This document shows, piece after piece, positions 3,480 through 46,105 of a stretch of 64,000 nucleotides of DNA. Source of the DNA: Siphonodentalium dalli (lineage: Eukaryota; Mollusca; Scaphopoda; Gadilida; Siphonodentaliidae). The stretch lies in the NCBI GenBank assembly GCA_032622095.1, contig CP136069.1, forward strand, positions 48,522,194 to 48,586,193. Reading direction: 5' to 3'. Position numbers and translations under genes: made by a program. A model generated the notes under the pieces. It saw only the letters and a list, made by a program, of their open reading frames with translations, was not told where the DNA came from and did no database searches. Positions within the stretch are counted from its first letter, which is position 1. Each line of letters starts with the position of its first letter.

Positions 3480-5150
3480 TTTCGTTGAAATCAGCAAGAT
3501 TTACCCGATTTGACCTTGAATTGACAGTTTTGAAGGTCAAAGTCAGGTCCTGATTTGACCCGTCCAAAACGCTCCCCGGACAAAAGTAGCCCTAGGTATA
3601 AAATTTCTTAGAAATCCGTCAGTTTGACCCTATTTGACCTTGAATTGATCATATTTTTAAATATTTTCATTCCTTAGCAGTTTAGCAGCATAGCACTGAT
3701 ATAATTGAGTTTGATACGCCCTTTTCTTGATTCAGTTGCACTTAGCACTTAGCCCCTCAAAATATGAGTACCAAAATTTTTTTTACCACGTTTCTTGCCA
3801 TATCTACATAATTCAGTTTGAAACTCTCTTTTTAAATATTTTCATTCCTTAGCAGTTTAGCAGCAGAGCACTGCTAGAATTCTGTTTGAAACTCTCTTTT
3901 TTAATATTTTCATTCCTTAGCAGCATAGCACTGCTAGAATTCTGTTTGAAACTCTCTTTTTTAATATTTTCATTCCTTAGCAGTTTAGCAGCATAGCACT
4001 GCTAGAATTCAGTTTGAGACTCTCTTCTTTAATATGTTCATTCCTTAGCAGTTTAGCAGCAGAGCACTGCTAGAATTCAGTTTGAAACTCTTTTTTAATA
4101 TTTTCATTCCTTAGCAGTTTAGCAGCATAGCACTGCTAGAATTTTGTTTGAAACTCTCTTTTTTAATATTTTCATTCCTTAGCAGTTTAGCAGCAGAGCA
4201 TTGCTAGAATTCTGTTTGAAACTCTCATTTTTAATATTTTCATTCCTTAGCAGTTTAGCAGCATAGCACTGCTAGAATTCAGTTTGAAACTCTCTTTTTT
4301 TATATTTTCATTCCTTAGCAGTTTAGCAGCGTAGCACTACTAGAATTGAGTTTGAAACTCTCTTTTTTAATAATTTCATTCCTTAGCAGTTTAGCAGCAG
4401 AGCACTGCTAGAATTCTGTTTGAAACTCTCTTTTTTAATATTTTCATTCCTTAGCAGTTTAGCAGCAGAGCACTGCTAGAATTCTGTTTGAAACTCTCAT
4501 TTTTAATATTTTCATTCCTTAGCAGTTTAACAGCATAGCACTGCTAGAATTCTGTTTGAAACTCTCTTTTTTAATATTTTCATTCCTTAGCAGTTTAGCA
4601 GCAGAGCACTGCTAGAATTCTGTTTGAAACTCTCATTTTTAATATTTTCATTCCTTAGCAGTTTAACAGCATAGCACTGCTAGAATTCAGCTTGAAACTC
4701 TTTTTTTTTTAATATTTTCATTCCTTAGCAGTTTAGCAGCGTAGCACTACTAGAATTCAGTTTGAAACCCTCTTTTTTAATAATTTCATTCCTTAGCAGT
4801 TTAGCAGCAGAGCACTGCTAGAATTCAGTTTGAAACTCTCTTTTTTAATATTTTCATTCCTTAGCAGTTTAGCAGCATAGCACTGCTAGAATTGAGTTTG
4901 ATACGCCCTTTTCTTGATTCAGTTGCACTTAGCACTTAGCACTTAGCCCCTCAAAATATGAGTACCAAAACAAATTTGACCACGTTTCTTGTCATATCTA
5001 ATTTTGAAGGTCACGGTCAGGTATGTGTCACGATTTGACCCGTCCGTGACACTTCCCGGACAAAAGTACCCCTATGTAGCAAGTTTGGGCTCAATCGGTT
5101 GACCCGTCCCGAGTTGACCATTTTGCTCCCAGATATAATTTTTAGCAGTG
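3480..5150. mobile_element. Pearl-like element (TTGACC core family) with an expanded satellite inside
   Basis: Core units at 3490-3655 and 4990-5130 share the blocks 'gaccttgaattgac', 'tttgacccgtcc' and 'ccccggacaaaagta'. The same blocks recur at 19595-20040 ahead of a CAGA-type run. Between the two core blocks lies the 68-bp satellite (separate entry), itself flanked by two copies of a block of about 100 bp (3700-3790 and 4885-4985). I infer one element whose centre has been expanded. Confidence 0.5.
3655..4905. repeat. 68-bp tandem satellite, about 17 copies
   Basis: Each unit contains CATTCCTTAGCAGTTTAGCA, GCACTGCTAGAATTC and TTTGAAACTCTC. The period is about 68 bp from about 3835 to 4900, with a first partial unit near 3660. 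Units differ by a few bases; most keep the GAATTC and the TAGCAGTGCT-type inverted pairing. The array is noncoding, with stops in every frame. Confidence 0.93.
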
Positions 5151-5449: not shown

Positions 5450-7070
5450 TGACTGAGAGTGGAGAACGGGTGCTCTGAGCTTCTCCAAAACGCCGCGACG
5501 ACCATTCCCGTGGGATTTTACCCTTAGATGGGAAGTTTGGTCTCGATCGGTGCAGCCGTTTTCGATTCTATAAAGTACACACATATATAATTATATACGG
5601 AGTTCTCAAAATATATAGGAGACTAGCCGATGAGCCCGACGTTGTCCGGGCTATTCAAAAACCAAATTTCAAGTCGATAGCTCCACCCGTTTCCGAGATC
5701 TGGTCTGCGCATGCGCGAAGCTGGCGTCGCACGGGCTCGGCGACCCGATAAAATTCGTATCCGGGGCAAGGTACATTCACATAGCAAATTTCAAGTCGAT
5801 AGCTCCACCCGTTTCCGAGATCTCGTCTGCGCATGCGCGAAGCGGGCGCCGCACGGGCTCGCCAATACGACAACATCGACCGCCTGGTCAAACTACACAC
5901 ACGTACCAAGTTTCGTTCCGATCGGTCGAGAATCGTAGATTTGTATAAATGACAGACAGACAAACAGACAGAGGTCTTCAAAATATATATGAGACTAGCC
6001 GATGAGCCCGACGTTGTCCGGGCTATTAAAAAACCAAATTTCAAGTCGATAGCTCTACCCAACCCGACGTTGTCCGGGCTATTCAAAAACCAAATTTCAA
6101 GTCGATAGCTCTACCCGTTCCGAGATCTGGTCTGCGCATGCGCGAAGCTGGCGTCGCACGCGCTCGGCGACCCGATAAAATTCATAGCAAATTTCAAGTC
6201 GATAGCTCCACCCGTTTCCGATATCTCGTCTGCGCATGCGCGAAGCTGGCGTCGCACGGGCTCGGCGACCCGATAAAATTCGTATCCGGGGCAAGGTACA
6301 TTCACATAGCAAATTTCAAGTCGATAGCTCCACCCGTTTCCGAGATCTCGTCTGCGCATGCGCGAAGCGGGCGCCGCACGGGCTCGCCAATACGACAACA
6401 TCGACCGCCTGGTCAAACTACACACACGTACCAAGTTTCGTTCCGATCGGTCGAGAATCGTAGATTTGTATAAATGACAGACAGACAAACAGACAGAGGT
6501 CTTCAAAATATATATGAGACTAGCCGATGAGCCCGACGTTGTCCGGGCTATTAAAAAACCAAATTTCAAGTCGATAGCTCTACCCAACCCGACGTTGTCC
6601 GGGCTATTCAAAAACCAAATTTCAAGTCGATAGCTCTACCCGTTCCGAGATCTGGTCTGCGCATGCGCGAAGCTGGCGTCGCACGCGCTCGGCGACCCGA
6701 TAAAATTCATAGCAAATTTCAAGTCGATAGCTCCACCCGTTTCCGATATCTCGTCTGCGCATGCGCGAAGCTGGCGTCGCACGGGCTCGGCGACCCGATC
6801 AAATTCGTATCCGGGGCAAGATACATTCACGTAGCAAATTTCAAGTCGTTAGCTCCACCCGTTTCGGAGATATCGTCTGCGCATGCGCGAAGCGGGCGCC
6901 GCACGGGCTCGCCAATACGACAACGTCGACCGTCTGGTCAAACTACACACACGTACCAAGTTTCGTCCCGATCGGTCGAGAATCGTAGATTTGTATAAAT
7001 GACAGACAAACAGACAGACAAACAGACATACAGACAGACAGAGGTCTTCAAAATATATATATATGAGATA
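5450..7070 (+). mobile_element. Pearl/Helentron-associated-like array (GC-rich core family)
   Basis: Head-to-tail elements. A 5' block with a GCCCGACGTTGTCCGGGC hairpin is followed by core repeats of about 100-123 bp ('aaatttcaagtcgatagctc' to 'ggctcggcgacccgata'). Then come a unit with 'caagtttcgt-ccgatcggtcgagaatcgtag', a run of CAGA/CAAA tetranucleotides and 'tcttcaaaatatatatgaga'. 5450-5620 holds the tail of a different, adjoining element. Long open frames here are read-through of the repeat, not genes. The core GC content is far above its surroundings, and each unit carries GCGCATGCGC. Confidence 0.8.
5740..6789. repeat. Exact or near-exact 525-bp tandem duplication
   Basis: The segment around 5740-6264 reappears 525 bases later at 6265-6789. 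5941-6190 and 6466-6715 appear identical by eye, including the odd internal junction 'ctctacccaacccgacg'. Divergence between other pearl copies is much higher, so this duplication is recent or an assembly artefact. Confidence 0.85.
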
Positions 7071-22964: not shown

Positions 22965-23790
22965 ATTGTACAACGTAGACCATGAGTCTGAATTATTTTC
23001 ACATAGCACTATCACTTCGTATTCCCTGCAACTTCGCCTTTGTGTTAGTTTATCTTGTTCGCTTTGAACTGGGTTCAAAGATGGACTACTTGTCTAGATG
23101 GGTGACTGAATGTCTTGTCATAAACTGACTTTCACTGTTAATGGGTTCTGGATCAAAGTCACCACTCATATAAATGCTGAATAAGATCGCCCCCCGCGTG
23201 ATTGCGACACACTACGCTACCATTATCTTCACCCATAAATACTAACGAGGTGTATAAACTGAGCGCTGAATAGTTCCATCATTAACGCGTTAAAGCTTGT
23301 ACAATTGATGTGATTCTAGAATATCTTTTGTTAACATTTACATAAGTAGTTTCCGAGTATTTCCGAGTGCAGGATAACATGATCAATATATTGTTCAAAT
23401 GATGTCCGCCAATGACTGTTGCCACAGTCTACCACAGTAACGCTTTTAAGTGTGGTGGGTTAATATGGTGGATATTGGTGACAATTGGTTATCGTAATTA
23501 CTGTAATATACATAGCTAATTACTGAATGTTGTTTGCTCAATTATGCCAACCCCTACCCGCGTATCTGTCGGTCCACTCATGGATTTTCTGCCTGAACTC
23601 ACTAACCTGTCACGTCTCGCAATCGAATGACCTCCACTTAACACGTACGTAGTATTATATTTCCCACACCCCCCCCCCCATGTATTTTAATACACAGACT
23701 ATGTTTATGAATGGACGATTGCTAAACAAAAACTTATTTTTATATAATTTATGGTCTCCAATATGACAAACATTGCCTATATCCGCACCA
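22965..23790. other. Intergenic, no gene recognised
   Basis: Contains a C homopolymer near 23670. I see nothing supportable. Confidence 0.45.
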
Positions 23791-24305
23791 GAAGTCTCAT
23801 ATATATTTTGAAGACCTCTGTTTGTCTGTCTGTCTGTCTGTCTGTATGTCATTTATACAAATCTACGATTCTCGACCGATCGGGACGAAACTTGGTACGT
23901 GTGTGTAGTTTGACCAGGCGGTCGTCGTTGTCGTATTGGCGAGCCCGTGCGTCGCCCGTGCAGCGCATGCGCAGACGAGATCTCGGAAACGGGTGGAGCT
24001 ATCGACTTGAAATTTGCTATGTGAATGTATCTTGCCCCAGATACGAATTTTATCGGGTCGCCGAGCCCGTGCGACGCCAGCTTCGCGCATGCGCAGACCA
24101 TATCTCGGAAACGGGTGGAGCTATCGACTTGAAATTTGGTATGTGAATGTATCTTTCCCCGGATACGAATTTTATCGGATCGCCGAGCCCGTGCGACGCC
24201 AGCTTCGCGCATGCGCAGACCAGATCTAGGAAACGGGTAGAGCTATCGACTTGAAATTTGTTTTTTGAATAGCCCGGACAACGTCGGGCTCATCGGCTAG
24301 TTTAT
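23790..24305 (-). mobile_element. Pearl/Helentron-associated-like element (GC-rich core family)
   Basis: Minus-strand copy of the family at 5.6 kb. Read on the minus strand: the GCCCGACGTTGTCCGGGC hairpin near 24270-24290, three core units, the unit with the 'gatcggtcgagaatcgtag' block, a GACAGACAGACAGACAAACA run (23818-23850) and 'cttcaaaatatatatgaga'. Each core unit carries GCGCATGCGC. Confidence 0.83.
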
Positions 24306-30340: not shown

Positions 30341-30344
30341 TGGT

Positions 30345-30700
30345 CCTGCTAATGTGATATGATGTTGGTGGGTCCCTCTGAATTAATATGGTGTTGGTGG
30401 ATCCTGCTGAATTGCTATGATGTCGGTGGATCCTGCTGAATTGCTATGGTGTTGGTGGATCCTGCTGGATTACTGTGATGTTGTTGGGTTCTGCTAAATT
30501 ACTATGATGTTGGTGGGTCTCGATGAATTACTATGATGCTCGTGTGTCTCGCTAAATGTATATAATGGTGGCGGGTCCTGCTGCATTACTATATTGGTGG
30601 GTTCTGTTGAATTGATATGATATTGGGTGGGTCCTGCTGAATTGCTATGGCGCTGGTGGGTCCTGCTAAATTGCTGTGACCCTGGTGGGTCCTGGCACGT
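30345..30700. repeat. Minisatellite, unit about 30-33 bp, about 11 copies
   Basis: Units read GGTGGGTCCTGCTGAATT followed by 'gctatgatgttg' or variants. Unit length and sequence drift along the array. A second array lies at 31130-31262. Confidence 0.9.
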
Positions 30701-31129
30701 AGAACACTGTCGCGAGCAGATAATTGACACATCTGCTTCATTCCTTCTGGTGGTGACCAGGTCGATGAGAGGATATAATAGGAGATGACTTATAAAACAC
30801 AACTCCGACCATACGCGTGTGAGATAATGACAGCTTAGCAATATATGTTTTTTTGTATATGCTTTAAAGCCCAGAATGCCTCGCCTTTGCATAACATCGT
30901 ATACAGGTCTAACGCAAATGTTCAATTGGTGCTTACCTGATCTTCCAAACAACATAGATTCCATTTACCATTTCTGGAAAAATTTTCACACAAAGCATTC
31001 GGAGCTTCCATCACATTCAATATTCCTGATATTTGTTCTCAAAACCCACATCACTATTTATACAGTCGTCTGTGTATATTATTGTAATATATTCAATCTC
31101 TCCTTAGAAGGAGGCAATAAAGACATATG

Positions 31130-31262
31130 TGGTACTGGTGGGCCTTGCTGAATTGATATGGTGCTGGTGGGTCCTGGTGAATTGTTATGATGCTGGTGGG
31201 TCATGCTCAAGTGCTATGATGCTGGTTTGTCCTGCTGAATTGCTATGGAGCTGGTGGGGCAA
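31130..31262. repeat. Second array of the same minisatellite
   Basis: Four units of GGTGGGTCCTGGTGAATT-type, separated from the first array by about 430 bp of unrelated sequence. Two reversed, decayed units ('gaattcagcaggacactc') sit at 31558-31620. Confidence 0.85.
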
Positions 31263-37281: not shown

Positions 37282-38486
37282 TTTATGTTTGTCCTTTCAG
37301 GTCTCAAGAACTGCTGACCTGTTTAATAACTATAAACACAACAGTACAATCACCAAATACAAGTAAATTATTATCTTGGCTCTATGAAATGATTTTTTAT
37401 TTGCGTCATAATGTTGCGTTAAAAACTATAACTGTATGTTATAACATATCCATGTATTATAATGAAGAATAACGCAGCCACAACGATTTGAGCCCAAATG
37501 AAATTAGTGCAGGCTAGTCTAACCAAGGAGGGAACCATCGACCGACAAGAAGGCACGGCAGTATGTATATCTGGTCAGCTGGGGATTTGGCTGTGGACGT
37601 ATGCCCTAATACTCATGTCAGTCGAAAGTGTTATTTTCAAGTATATTATATAGACAACTATGTATGGGTGGTTGTCTTTCTACATGCAAATCCATTTCCA
37701 AATATTTTGGCAAAACGTGAGTCTCACTCTTAAGGAAAATGTTCAATATTTAGCACAATATGTGTTTAACGAATATGGAATCAATGTGTATGCTATTGAG
37801 TCGGGATATCGATCTATTAATATCGATATGTCCACATTGGCTAACTTTTATGAATATTGGCTAACATTGTTCAGTATATGCAAATTGACATAGAGCATAT
37901 GCACGTATATGGACCTGGTATATGTTTTACCAGAATTGTGTTGCGTGTGCCGCTATAGATGCAGATACATGTATGGTTGTATTCAATTGTGATAAACCGC
38001 CAGGTCAGCAATACAATTTAAGGAGTATGCCTGCACCCCAATGCAGTAGAATTCGCACCTTTGATTAAGACGGGTCGTTAAGTAACTGTGCGTGATTAAT
38101 ACGGAATTAATACTCATTACACGCTATGAACTAAACGCCTAATTATAAGAAGGTCAACGTACTTGATCAAGAACCAGAAAAGAGACAGATCTGTCATAAA
38201 ACTTTCAGACTGAATGAGCCAATGGTAGATGCCTGTACTCGCATTGTCACAGAATGGCGACCAGCATGATCAATCATTTCCGGGAGAAATGGTCAATATA
38301 TACGAGGCTACCACCAACAGAAAGCACAGATCAGCGAAATCAGGCAGCAAGTATGTTCTTCAAACGTGAATTCCTGTTGGTAAGTTTGTTTCATTCTTGT
38401 AATTCTTCTTTGGTTTCGAGATCAACCTACGATTATTTTAATCGAACGATCATCCTCAACTCAATAGCCTTCTACTATCCTTGTTT
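37282..38486. other. Intergenic, no gene recognised
   Basis: I see nothing supportable. Confidence 0.4.
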
Positions 38487-38631: not shown

Positions 38632-39978
38632 CTTCCAATGCCGTTACACGTGCATATTGTCCGTATCATATACAAAACGCCTTTGTGACTTCCAAACCTT
38701 TAAACGGACATGGCACACATTCAAGCTTCCAAATTATGTCTACGTAAACGGGAAGGATGTACAAGATGCACGTAGGTTGACACAAAATACACGAACAATT
38801 GATATACGGGCTTCATATGCTCTGAAAAAAAAATACTTCCAGTGATCACAGCTGTTGTAAATTGTTCGCTCAGAAGTGAAACAAACGATGTTGATTTCTA
38901 CCTTAGTAAGAATAAACTAACACGTAACTCTCTGTTCTGCTCCATGTCGTGCAAATTGTTGTTTTGTTTTAGGACCCAAACATCGTGGTCAATGTTGTAT
39001 GGCTTGTTGTGATTTAGAATGGTAATCTCGTAGAATGGTAGTTCCAGTATATATCGACCTATTTCTATACCGGGCAAAATTCAAAAGTGAATATTATTTA
39101 CTGCATTTTTGGAGCGCAAACCACCAAGTGGCGTTAAGGTTAATTGCGAGAATATCATTATATGAGAGCAACCTCTAGATCATGTCATGGATCTCGACTC
39201 TGGCTTCGCCCGTAGATATCATACTCTAAAGTTCAATATTTGAGAATTATTGATGTTTTGAAAGGGAAGTTTATAAAATTGAAAGCAAACAAAACAATGC
39301 AGGCTGTGTAGTTAATATAATGTTCCTTAACAAGGTAGAGTCGAATTTGCGTAGCGTCGCACACAGTCATGGAATTTCTCCCAGGTAATCAATCCATTAT
39401 GTATAACAGACGCCATTCAAATGATTCAATCTCAGAGCACAATCCCATTGTTACAATCGTGCCCTGATTTCTGGTAAAGTACACCAATTCCCAAGGCTGG
39501 CGAAGGAATGGTTCAATGATTATCCCATTGTTAGGCACCCGCAACTCATAACAAACAAATCGCACGGGCGCTTCAAAGTGGGAACAGTCCGTGTTGTTTC
39601 GGACATATCTATTCACATTCAGTTCATGTTAATCATGTTTTTGGGCGTGGCTAACCGGCTATCGTGTCCAATCGCGGCCATCGCACGGCACATTTCCAGT
39701 TTATTGCATTATGTGTGATCAATTGTGCTCTAAGTCGGTCAGAGCACGCGAAATGTTCTTTACCAGAATAAATCTCGTCTCCGACTCGATTGATTATGGC
39801 AAAGAACAATTCGCGTGCTCTAGCCATTACTTATATTCCATGTGTTGTTGTTTTCAATTTTGTAAAGTTACCCGTCATAACAGGTCATAACATTTCCCAG
39901 ATTTTGAGGGGAATGAATACGATCTATACGTTCGCAAGTTAGATTAGAGATTCGCTGCATGTGCAATATTCGCGCCCT
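38632..39978. other. Intergenic with small repeats
   Basis: 39741-39821 is a small inverted repeat ('agagcacgcgaa-tgttcttt' facing its inverse). 38960-39135 shares blocks ('aggacccaaacatcgtg', 'ttttggagcgcaaaccac') with 54405-54430 and 59260-59345, so it is dispersed repeat. No gene recognised. Confidence 0.5.
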
Positions 39979-42006: not shown

Positions 42007-45000
42007 GTGGCGCTTGTGTGTCTTCTACCATTGACGTCTGCAGGATTTGGATTTGGCGGCGGCCCATTTGGTTGTCCGGTGAGTACATTATACTATACTA
42101 TGGAAGTACATAGTTATAATTATATAGACACATGTGCCTACTTTGATACTCTGTGGGCATTCATCATTTTCTCTAATAAACTAACGTTACCCATTTTACG
42201 CCATACTTAGCATAATTGCAATTTGAGGATGCTGTCTGGAGTGCGTTCTGACCGTTCATGTGAACAAAATGGTCGTTAGACCTATTTTGTGCTATCCCCG
42301 ATGTTATTTTTTGGTCACCTGATAGTGCCGGCCAACCTCTTTACATAGCTGGCTATAGAGTAAAACCCTTGATATTTATACTTACATATAAATTTGCCAT
42401 AAGTACATGTATTATACGTGTAATTCAAATGTACAATCTGCACATTATTCACTATATATAGTAGATAGCCGATGAGCCCGACGTTGTCCGGGCTATTCAA
42501 AAACCAAATTTGTAGTCGATAGCTCTACCCGTTTCCGAGATCTGGTCTGCGCATGCGCGAAGCTGGAGTCGCACGGGCTCTGCGACCCGATAAAATTCGT
42601 ATCCGGGGCAAGATACATTCACATACCAAATTTCAAGTCGATAGCTCCACCCGTTTCCGAGATCTCGTCTGCGCATGCGCGAAGCTTGTGTCGCACGGGC
42701 TCGGCGACCCGATAAAATTCGTATCCGGGGCAAGATACATTCACAGAGCAAATTTCAAGTCGATAGCTCCACCCGTTTCCGAGATCTCGTCTGCGCATGC
42801 GCGAAACGGGCGCCGCACGATGAGCCCGACGTTGTCCGAGCTATTCAAAAACCAAATTTCAAGTCGATAGCTCCACCCGTTTCCGAGATCTCGTCTGCGC
42901 ATGCGCGAAGCTGGCGTCGCACGGGCTCGGCGACCCGATAAAATTTGTACCCGGCGCAAGATACATTCACATGCCAAATTTCAAGTCGATAGCTCCACCC
43001 GTTTCCGATATCTCGTCTGCGCATGCGCTGCACGGGCGTCGCACGGGCTCGCCAATACGACAACGACGACCGCCTGGTCAAACTACACACACGTACCAAG
43101 TTTCGTCCCGATCGGTCGAGAATCGTAGATTTGTATCAATGAAATACAGACAGACAGACAGACAAACAGAGGTCTTCAAAATATATATGAGATTTGAAAA
43201 CTCATACATTTAATGCTTATCGCTATTAAAATTCGTAGATATTCGTTTATTGTCCTACGTCTACCCAAATTGGAACAATGAATCTTTTATGAATGTTCAT
43301 ATAATTACTATTTACGAGGACAACTTAAGCAACAAGGGTCGTAGATTGAAAATATGATACGCATCACAAACAGACAACAACAAAGTGCAACCGTCGGTTC
43401 GATGTTGTTTGACAGACATATAATTTTGTTACTGAATTGTCACTCTATATAGTTTGTTTTTGTTTTTAAAGTTTGTTTTTGAAATACTCAATTCAATTTC
43501 AAGTTAAGATATCAGTACGAAATATGTGACTTATATGAATAATATATGCAAGGGTGTGTTGTACGCACAGACTATTGTGCGTGTAGTATAACTCAACTTA
43601 AGTTTCATCCCAATATTTTGCAGGGTGGCCCACCGTGTATGGGCTTTCCAGGCGGCCCAGGTTTTGGCGGACCAGGTTTCGGTTTTCGTAAGTATATATA
43701 TTCAACCTAAAGAATTCACATACTCACTAGACCGCAAAACTATCGAAAGAGTATATTTCGCTTACATATTATGACCAGTGTTAGAGTATGCCTCTCCGGT
43801 ATGGGATAACTGCACTCAATTAGGTGAGCTGATTGAGAGAGAAAAATCAGTTTGAGGCTGCAAGAATAGCATCGGGATGAACAAGAAGTATAAACGGCAT
43901 TGATATTTTTGCTGACCTTGCCTGGGAAGTGCTAAGTGAAAGGAGAAGAAACTTCAAACTTCATCATTCTATAAAATGTTTTATCTTTACAATACAATTA
44001 ATCACCAACATAATTTTCGAATAACTGACTTAACCCCAATTTTCCGGCAAACCATCGATTCAATGCTCATTCCCGCCCGCGACAATACGCCATTGGAATC
44101 AGTTATCTTATGAACTGAGAAAATCTGAAACTTTAAATACTAACTGAATTCTGATTTGCGTCGAAGACAAAAGAACGTTCGCCATTATATCTATTGCACA
44201 TGTAAACAGCGTTTCAGGACTCTTAGTTGCCGATGACGGTGTCATGTGAGGCTCATGCATTGGAAATGGTACAAAGCGCCGTCCGACTATGGCGAGACTG
44301 ATTCTAACCGTGATTCGGGATCCACTCAAAGGGGTGGTAATCTTATTCCTTTATCTGGAACTGTTCGTCGGGACTCGTTGCTTTCATGGACAGGGGTGAA
44401 TTTTGGGGCATGTCTATCCCCCGACATCGACATTAGTTGGAAATTTTACACCACATGTAGCATTTAATTGTTCTAATTGTCTGAAATGGCCATCCGTTGG
44501 ATTTGTTTTAACTTGGGGGTGGGTATGATGAAGGTTTTCAACAGTTTAAAGGTACAGTTGAGGTGCGAGCTGGAAAGATCCCACGTAAACGAGTGCATGC
44601 AAAATGGACTTCTGCAATCATTGAAGTTTGGTCTTGTTCAAGGGTGGGGGTGCAGTTGGACATTTTTAGGTGGACACCCGCCCCAACTGGGATCCTCTTC
44701 CAACGTATATAGTGGGTTCTATATGCAATGGTACGGTTTTATGGTGAAATTAACACCCTGTTCGGTCTTTTCTCAACCATCAAAACCGACGATGTCATGA
44801 TATGGCTGAAACGACAATATGTACGCCGGGGGTTAATCGTGGTGAATACATACATGGTGGATTATTTATATACGAACAATATGCACGGACATATTTATTA
44901 ATGTGAGAGCAAGAAAAATGAACCCCGTGCCACTGTAATATATAATAAAGAGTATGATTTATTAATATGGATGTATTTAATGGGCGACTGTCTTTACATA

Positions 45001-45795
45001 TGAATTTCATGCTGGAATTAATTTTGAGTGTCACCCGTCAATCGCTAAGAAATCAAATCTAGGACGCACGTTGACTTGATCGTGTCGTGACGGGTGGCGG
45101 GTTTCGTGTGCCAGTGTATTATGTTATATATGCGAGTCTCCCATAGGAAGCCTCGGATATATATGAGAATGCACTGGCTTACAAGGTCAATGTAAATAGT
45201 GTTAGACCAATTTATTCTCCTACATATGCGAGGCTCCCTATGACAGACTCGTATAGATAAGATAATGCTTTGGTACAGGGTTTTAGGAAGCTTTGTGCTA
45301 TATCGCCCCATTTCCTAAATGAAATAATTATATAATCATAGCATTGGTCAAAGTAATGCAGAAAAAAGATTAACATTTAGAAAGTTCAGGCTGAATCAGA
45401 GGCTGACATATATTTCCGATAGTTCAATTTTCCAACAATATTTAGCAGAAAGTATGTGAATTCCAAGAGACAGATATTCACGAACATATAAGCCACCAAT
45501 TTTCGGATGCAATGCAATAACATGCATGTGCTTTTTAATTGTATTGTTACAAGTAATGTTGGTTTATCTTATTTTATTTTGTTTTCTATCTATATTTATC
45601 TTTTTGTATTTAGAAGTTCGTATTAAGTGATCATGCCACTTTACATTCACAGCATTCAGGCGCTTTGGCCGTAGATTTGGTAGATTTGGTGGCCGGTTCG
45701 GACGCGGGTTCGGCTTCGGTGGTCCCGGCTTCGGTGGTCCCGGCTTCGGTGGTCCAGGATTCGGTGGTCCAGGATACGGGCCGTGGACGGACTAG
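42007..45795 (+). CDS. Secreted cationic glycine-rich protein, three exons seen, 5' exon missing
   Basis: Exons at 42007-42078, 43624-43687 and 45653-45795 (stop TAG). Donors are GTGAGT and GTAAGT, acceptors CAAG, GCAG and ACAG, and the phases agree (0 then 1). Exon 1 as seen encodes the end of a signal peptide ending LPLTSA before GFGFGGG. It has no ATG between an upstream in-frame stop and the acceptor, so at least one earlier exon carries the start. The mature part is about 80 residues. It has two cysteines (GCP, PPC), then an arginine block (FRRFGRRFGRFGGRFGRG), then four GGPGF repeats and PGYGPWTD. Composition resembles secreted glycine-rich proteins such as shell-matrix components or glycine-rich antimicrobial peptides. 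The role is inference. Exon 3 and the UTR have an inverted relative at 61.7 kb, which supports the frame and the last acceptor. Confidence 0.82.
42450..43195 (+). mobile_element. Pearl/Helentron-associated-like element in intron 1 of the glycine-rich gene
   Basis: Hairpin block at 42470-42497, core repeats with five GCGCATGCGC sites (about 42550-43028), a second truncated hairpin block at 42820-42843, then the 'gatcggtcgagaatcgtag' unit, a CAGACAGACAGACAAACAGA run (43147-43170) and 'ttcaaaatatatatgaga'. The nested hairpin block shows one element end joined inside another. Confidence 0.82.
43735..44130 (+). pseudogene. LINE reverse-transcriptase C-terminal fragment in intron 2
   Basis: The plus strand reads 'PVLEYASPVWDNC' (43770-43815). 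After a frameshift it continues as 'QFEAARIASG', a stop, 'TRSINGIDIFADLAWEVLSERRRNFKL' and finally 'FPPATIRHWNQLS'. This matches the C-terminal region of RTE/CR1-type reverse transcriptases ('EAARIVTG-TRS' and 'W--L--RR--' motifs, and the terminal 'S-W--L'). Several TGA/TAA stops and a frameshift are present, and the catalytic half is absent. It is a dead 5'-truncated insertion and differs in sequence from the fragment at 12.2 kb, so it belongs to another LINE family. It lies between exons 2 and 3 of the glycine-rich gene and would be spliced out. Confidence 0.8.
45107..45280. mobile_element. Decayed pair of CCAATG-type palindromes in the region downstream of intron 2's LINE
   Basis: 'gtgccagtgtattatgttat' and its imperfect inverse form one palindrome (45107-45177). 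A second, more mutated one follows at 45208-45275. The layout is that of the TTAA-flanked palindromic elements, but the outer ends are lost. Confidence 0.65.
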
Positions 45796-46105
45796 TGACT
45801 ACCTCTTTAATGTGGTCAATCAACGAGTGGAGTTCGAAGACAAGGCGGAAATATCATATCGTAGCGCAGCGGTACGCCATCCATTCCCACGCAAGATACT
45901 CGTGGCGGTGCAGTTCTGCTAACTTCTGGAACACCCAACAGGAAGCACGTTGTTGACATAAGACTTTTGAAATCATGCTGCCTGCTGCTAAAACACGGAC
46001 AACGGACCTATCACTGGGCATATTACAAGACAACAGCTCTAGCCTAGATCAATGCGGGTTTAAGTAGTACCCTATTGTTAAATAAATACTATTTGAAACA
46101 AATGT
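45796..46105 (+). other. 3' UTR and poly(A) signal of the glycine-rich gene
   Basis: AATAAA at 46081-46086 is followed by 'tactatttgaaacaaatgttcagtaa'. Both the body of the UTR and this end are recognisable, inverted, at 60700-61719, so the transcript end is conserved between paralogues. Confidence 0.7.

Follow-up and report, generated by a model that had tools for sequence, protein, structure and literature searches.

The 64,000-nucleotide stretch of the Siphonodentalium dalli genome analysed here (the window; C9:48522194-48586193, C9 being contig CP136069.1) carries on its plus strand a gene, g1, which, as read from the DNA, is an intact four-exon gene spanning about 7.7 kb from its ATG to its poly-A signal. 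Coordinates given without a contig name are window positions. The start exon (exon 0, 38353-38379) encodes MFFKREFLL and is followed by a GTAAGT donor at 38380. Exon 1 (42007-42078) encodes VALVCLLPLTSAGFGFGGGPFGCP, the remainder of the putative signal peptide and the beginning of the mature protein, and exon 2 (43624-43687) encodes GGPPCMGFPGGPGFGGPGFGF plus one nucleotide and carries the conserved GPPCMG motif. Exon 3 (45653-45795) contributes an arginine/phenylalanine stretch and GFGGP repeats in the frame FRRFGRRFGRFGGRFGRGFGFGGPGFGG...GYGPWTD, which terminates at a TAG stop codon (45793-45795). The 3' untranslated region (UTR; 45796-46105) contains an AATAAA at 46081-46086, shortly 5' of position 46105, the end point chosen in the first-pass annotation.

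That annotation had proposed three exons of 72, 64 and 143 bp, with splice sites and phases that join them into a single reading. The sequence confirms this proposal, and the exon borders are borne out by two paralogues, g2 and g3. Exon 1 is bounded by the acceptor TTCAAG and the donor CCG/GTGAGT in all three genes, and exon 2 ends in phase 1 at a GTAAGT donor in each of them. When the exon borders were shifted, four of 36 combinations kept a glycine-rich reading across the three exons, and the border set given above is the one among those four with GT and AG at both joints. The annotation also correctly set aside the longest open frame across the last exon: the frame at 45614-45922 (102 aa) differs from that of the exon chain. 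In g2 this competing frame is interrupted by two stops, and in g3 it stays open through the 64 codons inspected. We consider that an open-frame count alone is not decisive for the last exon and that its frame is decided by the exon chain together with the shared composition.

The start exon, which the first-pass annotation had listed as missing, was sought up to 4.2 kb upstream of exon 1 among ATGs with a phase-0 donor at most 75 nt downstream, and the candidates were scored with a donor matrix. The top-scoring candidates were MFFKREFLL (g1), MFISNEFLL (g2) and MFFTRGLLM (g3), each followed by GTAAGT; they were chosen independently for each gene, and the ATG and donor nonetheless align in all three. 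The g1 start exon lies within a conserved block (38072-38465, plus strand) that is 73.6% identical to its g2 equivalent over 420 aligned columns (E 6.6e-72) and 70% identical to g3 over 122 columns (38266-38386). Both scored matches in a genome-wide search with this block were g1 and g2 themselves, and the block is probably the promoter and 5'UTR of g1. A first candidate position near a TATA-like block at ~39842-39881 (plus strand), about 2.1 kb upstream of exon 1, was dropped: the candidate list for g1 contained no ATG-donor pair close to this position, which gave way to the block at 38072-38465. The TTTTCAATnTTnTAAA-like sequence at ~39842-39881 yields weak matches between the genes (E 0.002 for g1-g2, 0.093 for g1-g3 and 1.6e-4 for g2-g3) and does not keep its place between them: in g1 and g3 it falls within intron 1, in g2 it precedes the start exon.

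A cluster of three paralogues

A 101-bp query around exon 2 found three matches in the 2.227-Gb assembly of nine contigs (E <= 0.001), itself included. The match to g2 is on the minus strand (82% identity, E 4.4e-19) and the match to g3 is on the plus strand (85% identity over a shorter stretch, E 3.9e-7). All three fall on C9 between 48565793 and 48607060, within 42 kb, and the three genes lie within 50 kb on this contig; a query with exon 1 of g2 likewise finds exon 1 of g1 genome-wide at E 1.3e-19. The last exon of g2 (61808-61720, minus strand), which encodes (P)WRFRMFGGRFGPGFGPGFGSGPFGHWMH and a stop behind the acceptor TCCATCCACAG, is the only g2 exon inside the window, near its end, and the other minus-strand exons are located beyond it at C9:48588680-48588746, 48591509-48591580 and, for the start exon, 48593082-48593108. 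The g3 gene is on the plus strand, also beyond the window. Each gene comprises four exons with phases (0,0,1) and no internal stop, and the exon lengths (27/72/64/143 bp in g1, 27/72/67/89 in g2 and 27/75/55/62 in g3) differ exon by exon by multiples of three, giving proteins of 101, 84 and 72 aa.

Profiles built from g1-g3, which score their own source exons by construction, were scanned over 159,806 contiguous bases (C9:48492194-48651999). Three exon-1 and three exon-2 places stand clear of everything else, and the exon 3 profile retrieves two places above the inclusion threshold, followed by a third, g1, at E 0.015 and the next at 3.2. Genome-wide searches with the family queries, which are insensitive at such divergence, returned no place outside the C9 cluster. 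The g1 protein query recovered only the three exons of g1 itself and the g2 protein query only those of g2, while the exon-2 DNA queries of g2 and g3 each missed the other gene. The family therefore counts at least three copies, because genome searches miss copies this diverged.

Comparing g1 and g2 at the DNA level gave eight matches, the four strongest of which correspond to the start-exon block, exon 1, exon 2 and the last exon with the 3'UTR (45736-46084, 76% identity, E 9.7e-70). The other four measure 27-39 bp; three of them share a single place in g2 and look like a dispersed repeat, and two of those three are in gene order, in intron 3. Ten matches were obtained between g1 and g3, three of which are the start-exon block, exon 1 and exon 2. 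The remaining seven (up to 168 bp) look mostly repeat-like; three of the seven, one of them at 39254-39291, fall in intron 1 and keep the gene order. Ratios of dN to dS (NG86, 35 conserved codons) were 0.34, 0.46 and 0.49 for the three pairs (components 0.18/0.54, 0.25/0.55 and 0.32/0.66), suggesting mild constraint over few sites.

Database searches returned no convincing match. In Pfam, g1 and g2 had no match and g3 a single weak one below the cut-off (YesK, E 0.36), and neither PHROGs nor NCBIfam matched any of the three proteins. The PDB returned only four peptidyl-prolyl isomerase chains for g1 (E 0.21-0.56), which we take as chance matches on low-complexity sequence, and nothing for the family profile. 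Five exact motif strings occur in two papers of the literature collection searched, both unrelated as judged by title. We conclude from the genomic evidence that this is a real and intact small gene family of an ordinary kind, so far without a match in the libraries searched, in support of the annotated split gene for a small, two-cysteine, repeat-bearing and probably secreted protein.

Several repeats accompany these genes. Intron 2 of g1 contains a repeat element of ~122-bp units (42495-43213) that is not part of the gene, and similar repeats occur at 5634-6998, at 23748-24260 and in the third intron of g2. The ~122-bp repeats adjoin GACA or TCTG runs (7001-7042, 23817-23850 and near 43147). 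Elsewhere in the window, tandem arrays of 29-bp units occupy 30342-30694 and 31130-31258, the first of which is overlapped by a minus-strand frame of 156 aa (30494-30964), and a 68-bp tandem repeat of 16 copies with 91% matches extends over 3810-4912.

Composition and probable role of the proteins

The leader was taken as residues 1-21 by hydropathy count and a cut after residue 21 was assumed, which leaves mature parts of 80 (g1), 63 (g2) and 51 (g3) residues. All three leaders start with Met, have a hydrophobic core with a mean of 2.6-3.1 (Kyte-Doolittle) and carry a small residue at position -1 of the assumed cut, which is preceded by TSA, TMS and TVS. Judged by hydropathy only, no second hydrophobic segment is present, as the 19-residue peaks reach 0.46, 0.84 and 0.61 in g1, g2 and g3, respectively.

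The mature parts consist of 45% (g1), 35% (g2) and 37% (g3) glycine and each contains about 16% proline. Phenylalanine accounts for 21%, 17.5% and 4% and tyrosine for 1.2%, 0% and 9.8% in the same order, and methionine makes up 20% of the mature part of g3, which includes GMYGPGMYGPGYGDYW. A cysteine pair spaced as CX5C (C-P-x-G-P-P-C-M-G) is retained in the three proteins and belongs to the 31 invariant columns of their alignment, along with 10 of the 21 leader residues. All three proteins also have a tail rich in Gly and Pro that contains Phe, Met or Tyr. The earlier description of an arginine-rich, GGPGF-repeat protein holds for g1 and does not extend to the family: GGPGF occurs five times in g1 and in neither g2 nor g3, and arginine falls from 8.8% (g1) to 4.8% (g2) and 0% (g3). 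The GFGGP repeat of g1 is encoded by about four tandem copies of a 15-bp unit (45711-45779). Since GGPGF is found in g1 only and CX5C in all three proteins, RFG and GGPGF represent the variable part of the family and the leader core and cysteine motif its shared part.

We favor the view, with a probability of roughly 0.6, that g1, a member of this cluster of paralogues, codes for a small extracellular structural protein, probably secreted, with a Gly/Pro tail, because the three proteins agree with the definition of silk-like structural proteins, set out below, as far as it can be tested. Such a protein could serve as a component of a secreted matrix, gel or cuticle. The leader would send the chain out of an epithelial cell, and the flexible Gly/Pro tail, with its spaced aromatic or methionine 'stickers', might then condense or gel into an extracellular material, for which cuticle, secreted sheath, periostracum, shell matrix or adhesive are candidates. 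The paired cysteines may close a small ring or cross-link chains, and paralogues that hold the leader core and CX5C while varying tail residues would tune charge and stickiness.

Several observations weigh against this view. The DNA comparison that aligned the other exons of g1 and g3 gave no match between their last exons, which share a similar composition only, and in g2 the nearest AATAAA downstream of the stop lies at a distance of 684 nt. Both the leader boundary and the cut are assigned as described above, and the dN/dS values rest on 35 codons and three pairs that are not independent. Small size, clustering and rapid divergence are, moreover, also seen in nematode antimicrobial peptides (PMC2453101).

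Alternative roles

The main rival is that the cluster encodes epithelial glycine-rich antimicrobial peptides in the style of the Caenorhabditis elegans NLP/CNC peptides, secreted, membrane-active and diversified through local duplication. The paralogues are indeed short, probably secreted, glycine-rich, clustered and diverging, in a genomic style similar to that of the nlp-29 cluster (PMC2453101), and the mature part of g1 has a calculated charge of +5.7 and a pI of 11.6. Charge is, however, not conserved: it drops to +1.9 in g2 and to -2.3 in g3, whose mature part is devoid of Arg and Lys and has a calculated pI of 4.1, and the invariant residues are mainly those of the leader and of CPxGPPCMG rather than any cationic pattern. 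Because g3 lacks positive charge, an antimicrobial role as the common function of the family is disfavored, and we regard this explanation as unlikely. The same spread of charges does not support a cationic or arginine-rich character as the defining property, and weakens the suggestion in the first-pass annotation of a cationic defence peptide, which appears less likely than a structural protein.

A bolder version of the structural reading would turn this spread into a two-charge material kit. An ancestral CX5C glycine-rich peptide would have split into strongly basic Phe/Arg, weakly basic and acidic Met/Tyr forms that are co-secreted and undergo complex coacervation into one extracellular material, locked by the conserved cysteine pair; we consider this speculative and give it only a small chance.

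Less probable still is a minor peptide of the extracellular matrix, collagen-like or otherwise, whose Gly-Pro runs would form short helices and whose CX5C pair would staple chains. Six consecutive Gly-X-Y triplets in g2 are in line with this proposal, but the longest such run is two triplets in g1 and zero in g3, short of the long runs expected, and the Pfam search did not detect a collagen repeat. We attach hardly any weight to an RFamide-type neuropeptide precursor, which would require cleavage of RRFGRRFGRFGGR at basic sites and amidation at the glycine. In g1, RFG precedes an R at three places and the mature part holds two dibasic RR sites, but the RFG and dibasic features are confined to g1, as g2 and g3 lack dibasic sites, and just two residues would remain between the two cuts in g1. 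The very short exons and low-complexity repeat sequence might also suggest that open segments line up by chance here or that the gene is a decayed pseudogene. This is just as improbable, given that two paralogues have all four exons in identical phases without an internal stop, that exon lengths differ by multiples of three and that conservation largely tracks the exons.

Family searches of the same genome gave no match at E <= 0.001 to the molluscan haemocyanin beta-sandwich or to Chitin_bind_4, for both of which the controls were silent as well, nor to hemerythrin, which was detected in 7 of 14 controls. Tyrosinase was found at six places. In the C1:162339812 region (L041 1033-2928), an open frame of 631 aa carries a tyrosinase domain and, behind it, numerous GYDRxGYD-like repeats, and is possibly another secreted material protein.

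These genes illustrate how annotation based on single frames or on domains may overlook an entire secreted gene family whose exons measure 27-143 bp, and how comparison of neighbouring paralogues brings it back, down to the start exon. Should the structural reading be right, the three charge-divergent paralogues constitute a small natural series for relating tail sequence to the behaviour of glycine-rich matrix proteins.

Comparison with known protein families

Shematrins are secreted shell proteins of pearl oysters, rich in glycine and with aromatic repeats and a basic C-terminus. They resemble g1-g3 as a glycine-rich family of (here probably) secreted proteins with aromatic residues, but the C-termini WTD (g1), WMH (g2) and DYW (g3) do not show the basic motif. 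The repeat of abductin is FGGMGGG, and no repeat of this type occurs in any of the three proteins. Abductin and the methionine-rich shell or ligament proteins nevertheless have a bias toward Gly and Phe or Met in common with the family, g3 with its methionine-rich mature part included, and the methionine-rich proteins with a stated size (PMC7591529) are ~45-180 kDa, as opposed to the small g1-g3.

The NLP/CNC peptides of the nlp-29 cluster resemble g1-g3 as glycine-rich, clustered and fast-diverging paralogues, and are described as glycine- and tyrosine-rich (PMC2453101); induction by infection is a further criterion for peptides of this type. The present paralogues are likewise clustered, and glycine reaches 35-45% in all three, but tyrosine stays at the low values reported above. 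The sole telomere array read in the genome is TTAGGG (CCCTAA at the start of C3), in contrast to the nematode type TTAGGC, and no telomere array was present at the eight other contig starts read (of nine) or at the far end of C9.

In the 2016 definition of McDougall, Woodcroft and Degnan (PMC4944945), silk-like structural proteins (SLSPs) have a leader, no membrane segment and at least 25% Gly in 80 aa or 35% in 28 aa, and expression in a material-forming tissue would be a further criterion. Measured against this SilkSlider definition, g1 has 45% Gly in 80 residues, g2 35% of 63 and g3 37% of 51 (both shorter than 80), the 28-residue windows reach 57%, 39% and 39%, and hydropathy indicates no transmembrane segment after the leader. 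Unlike the SLSPs described there, g1-g3 are very short (72-101 aa), with two of the three mature chains below the standard 80-residue window, carry the conserved CX5C motif and have a putative material role. In common with SLSPs, they combine an N-terminal Met, a hydrophobic leader, no further hydrophobic segment and glycine above the cut-off with the lack of a convincing match in the libraries searched.

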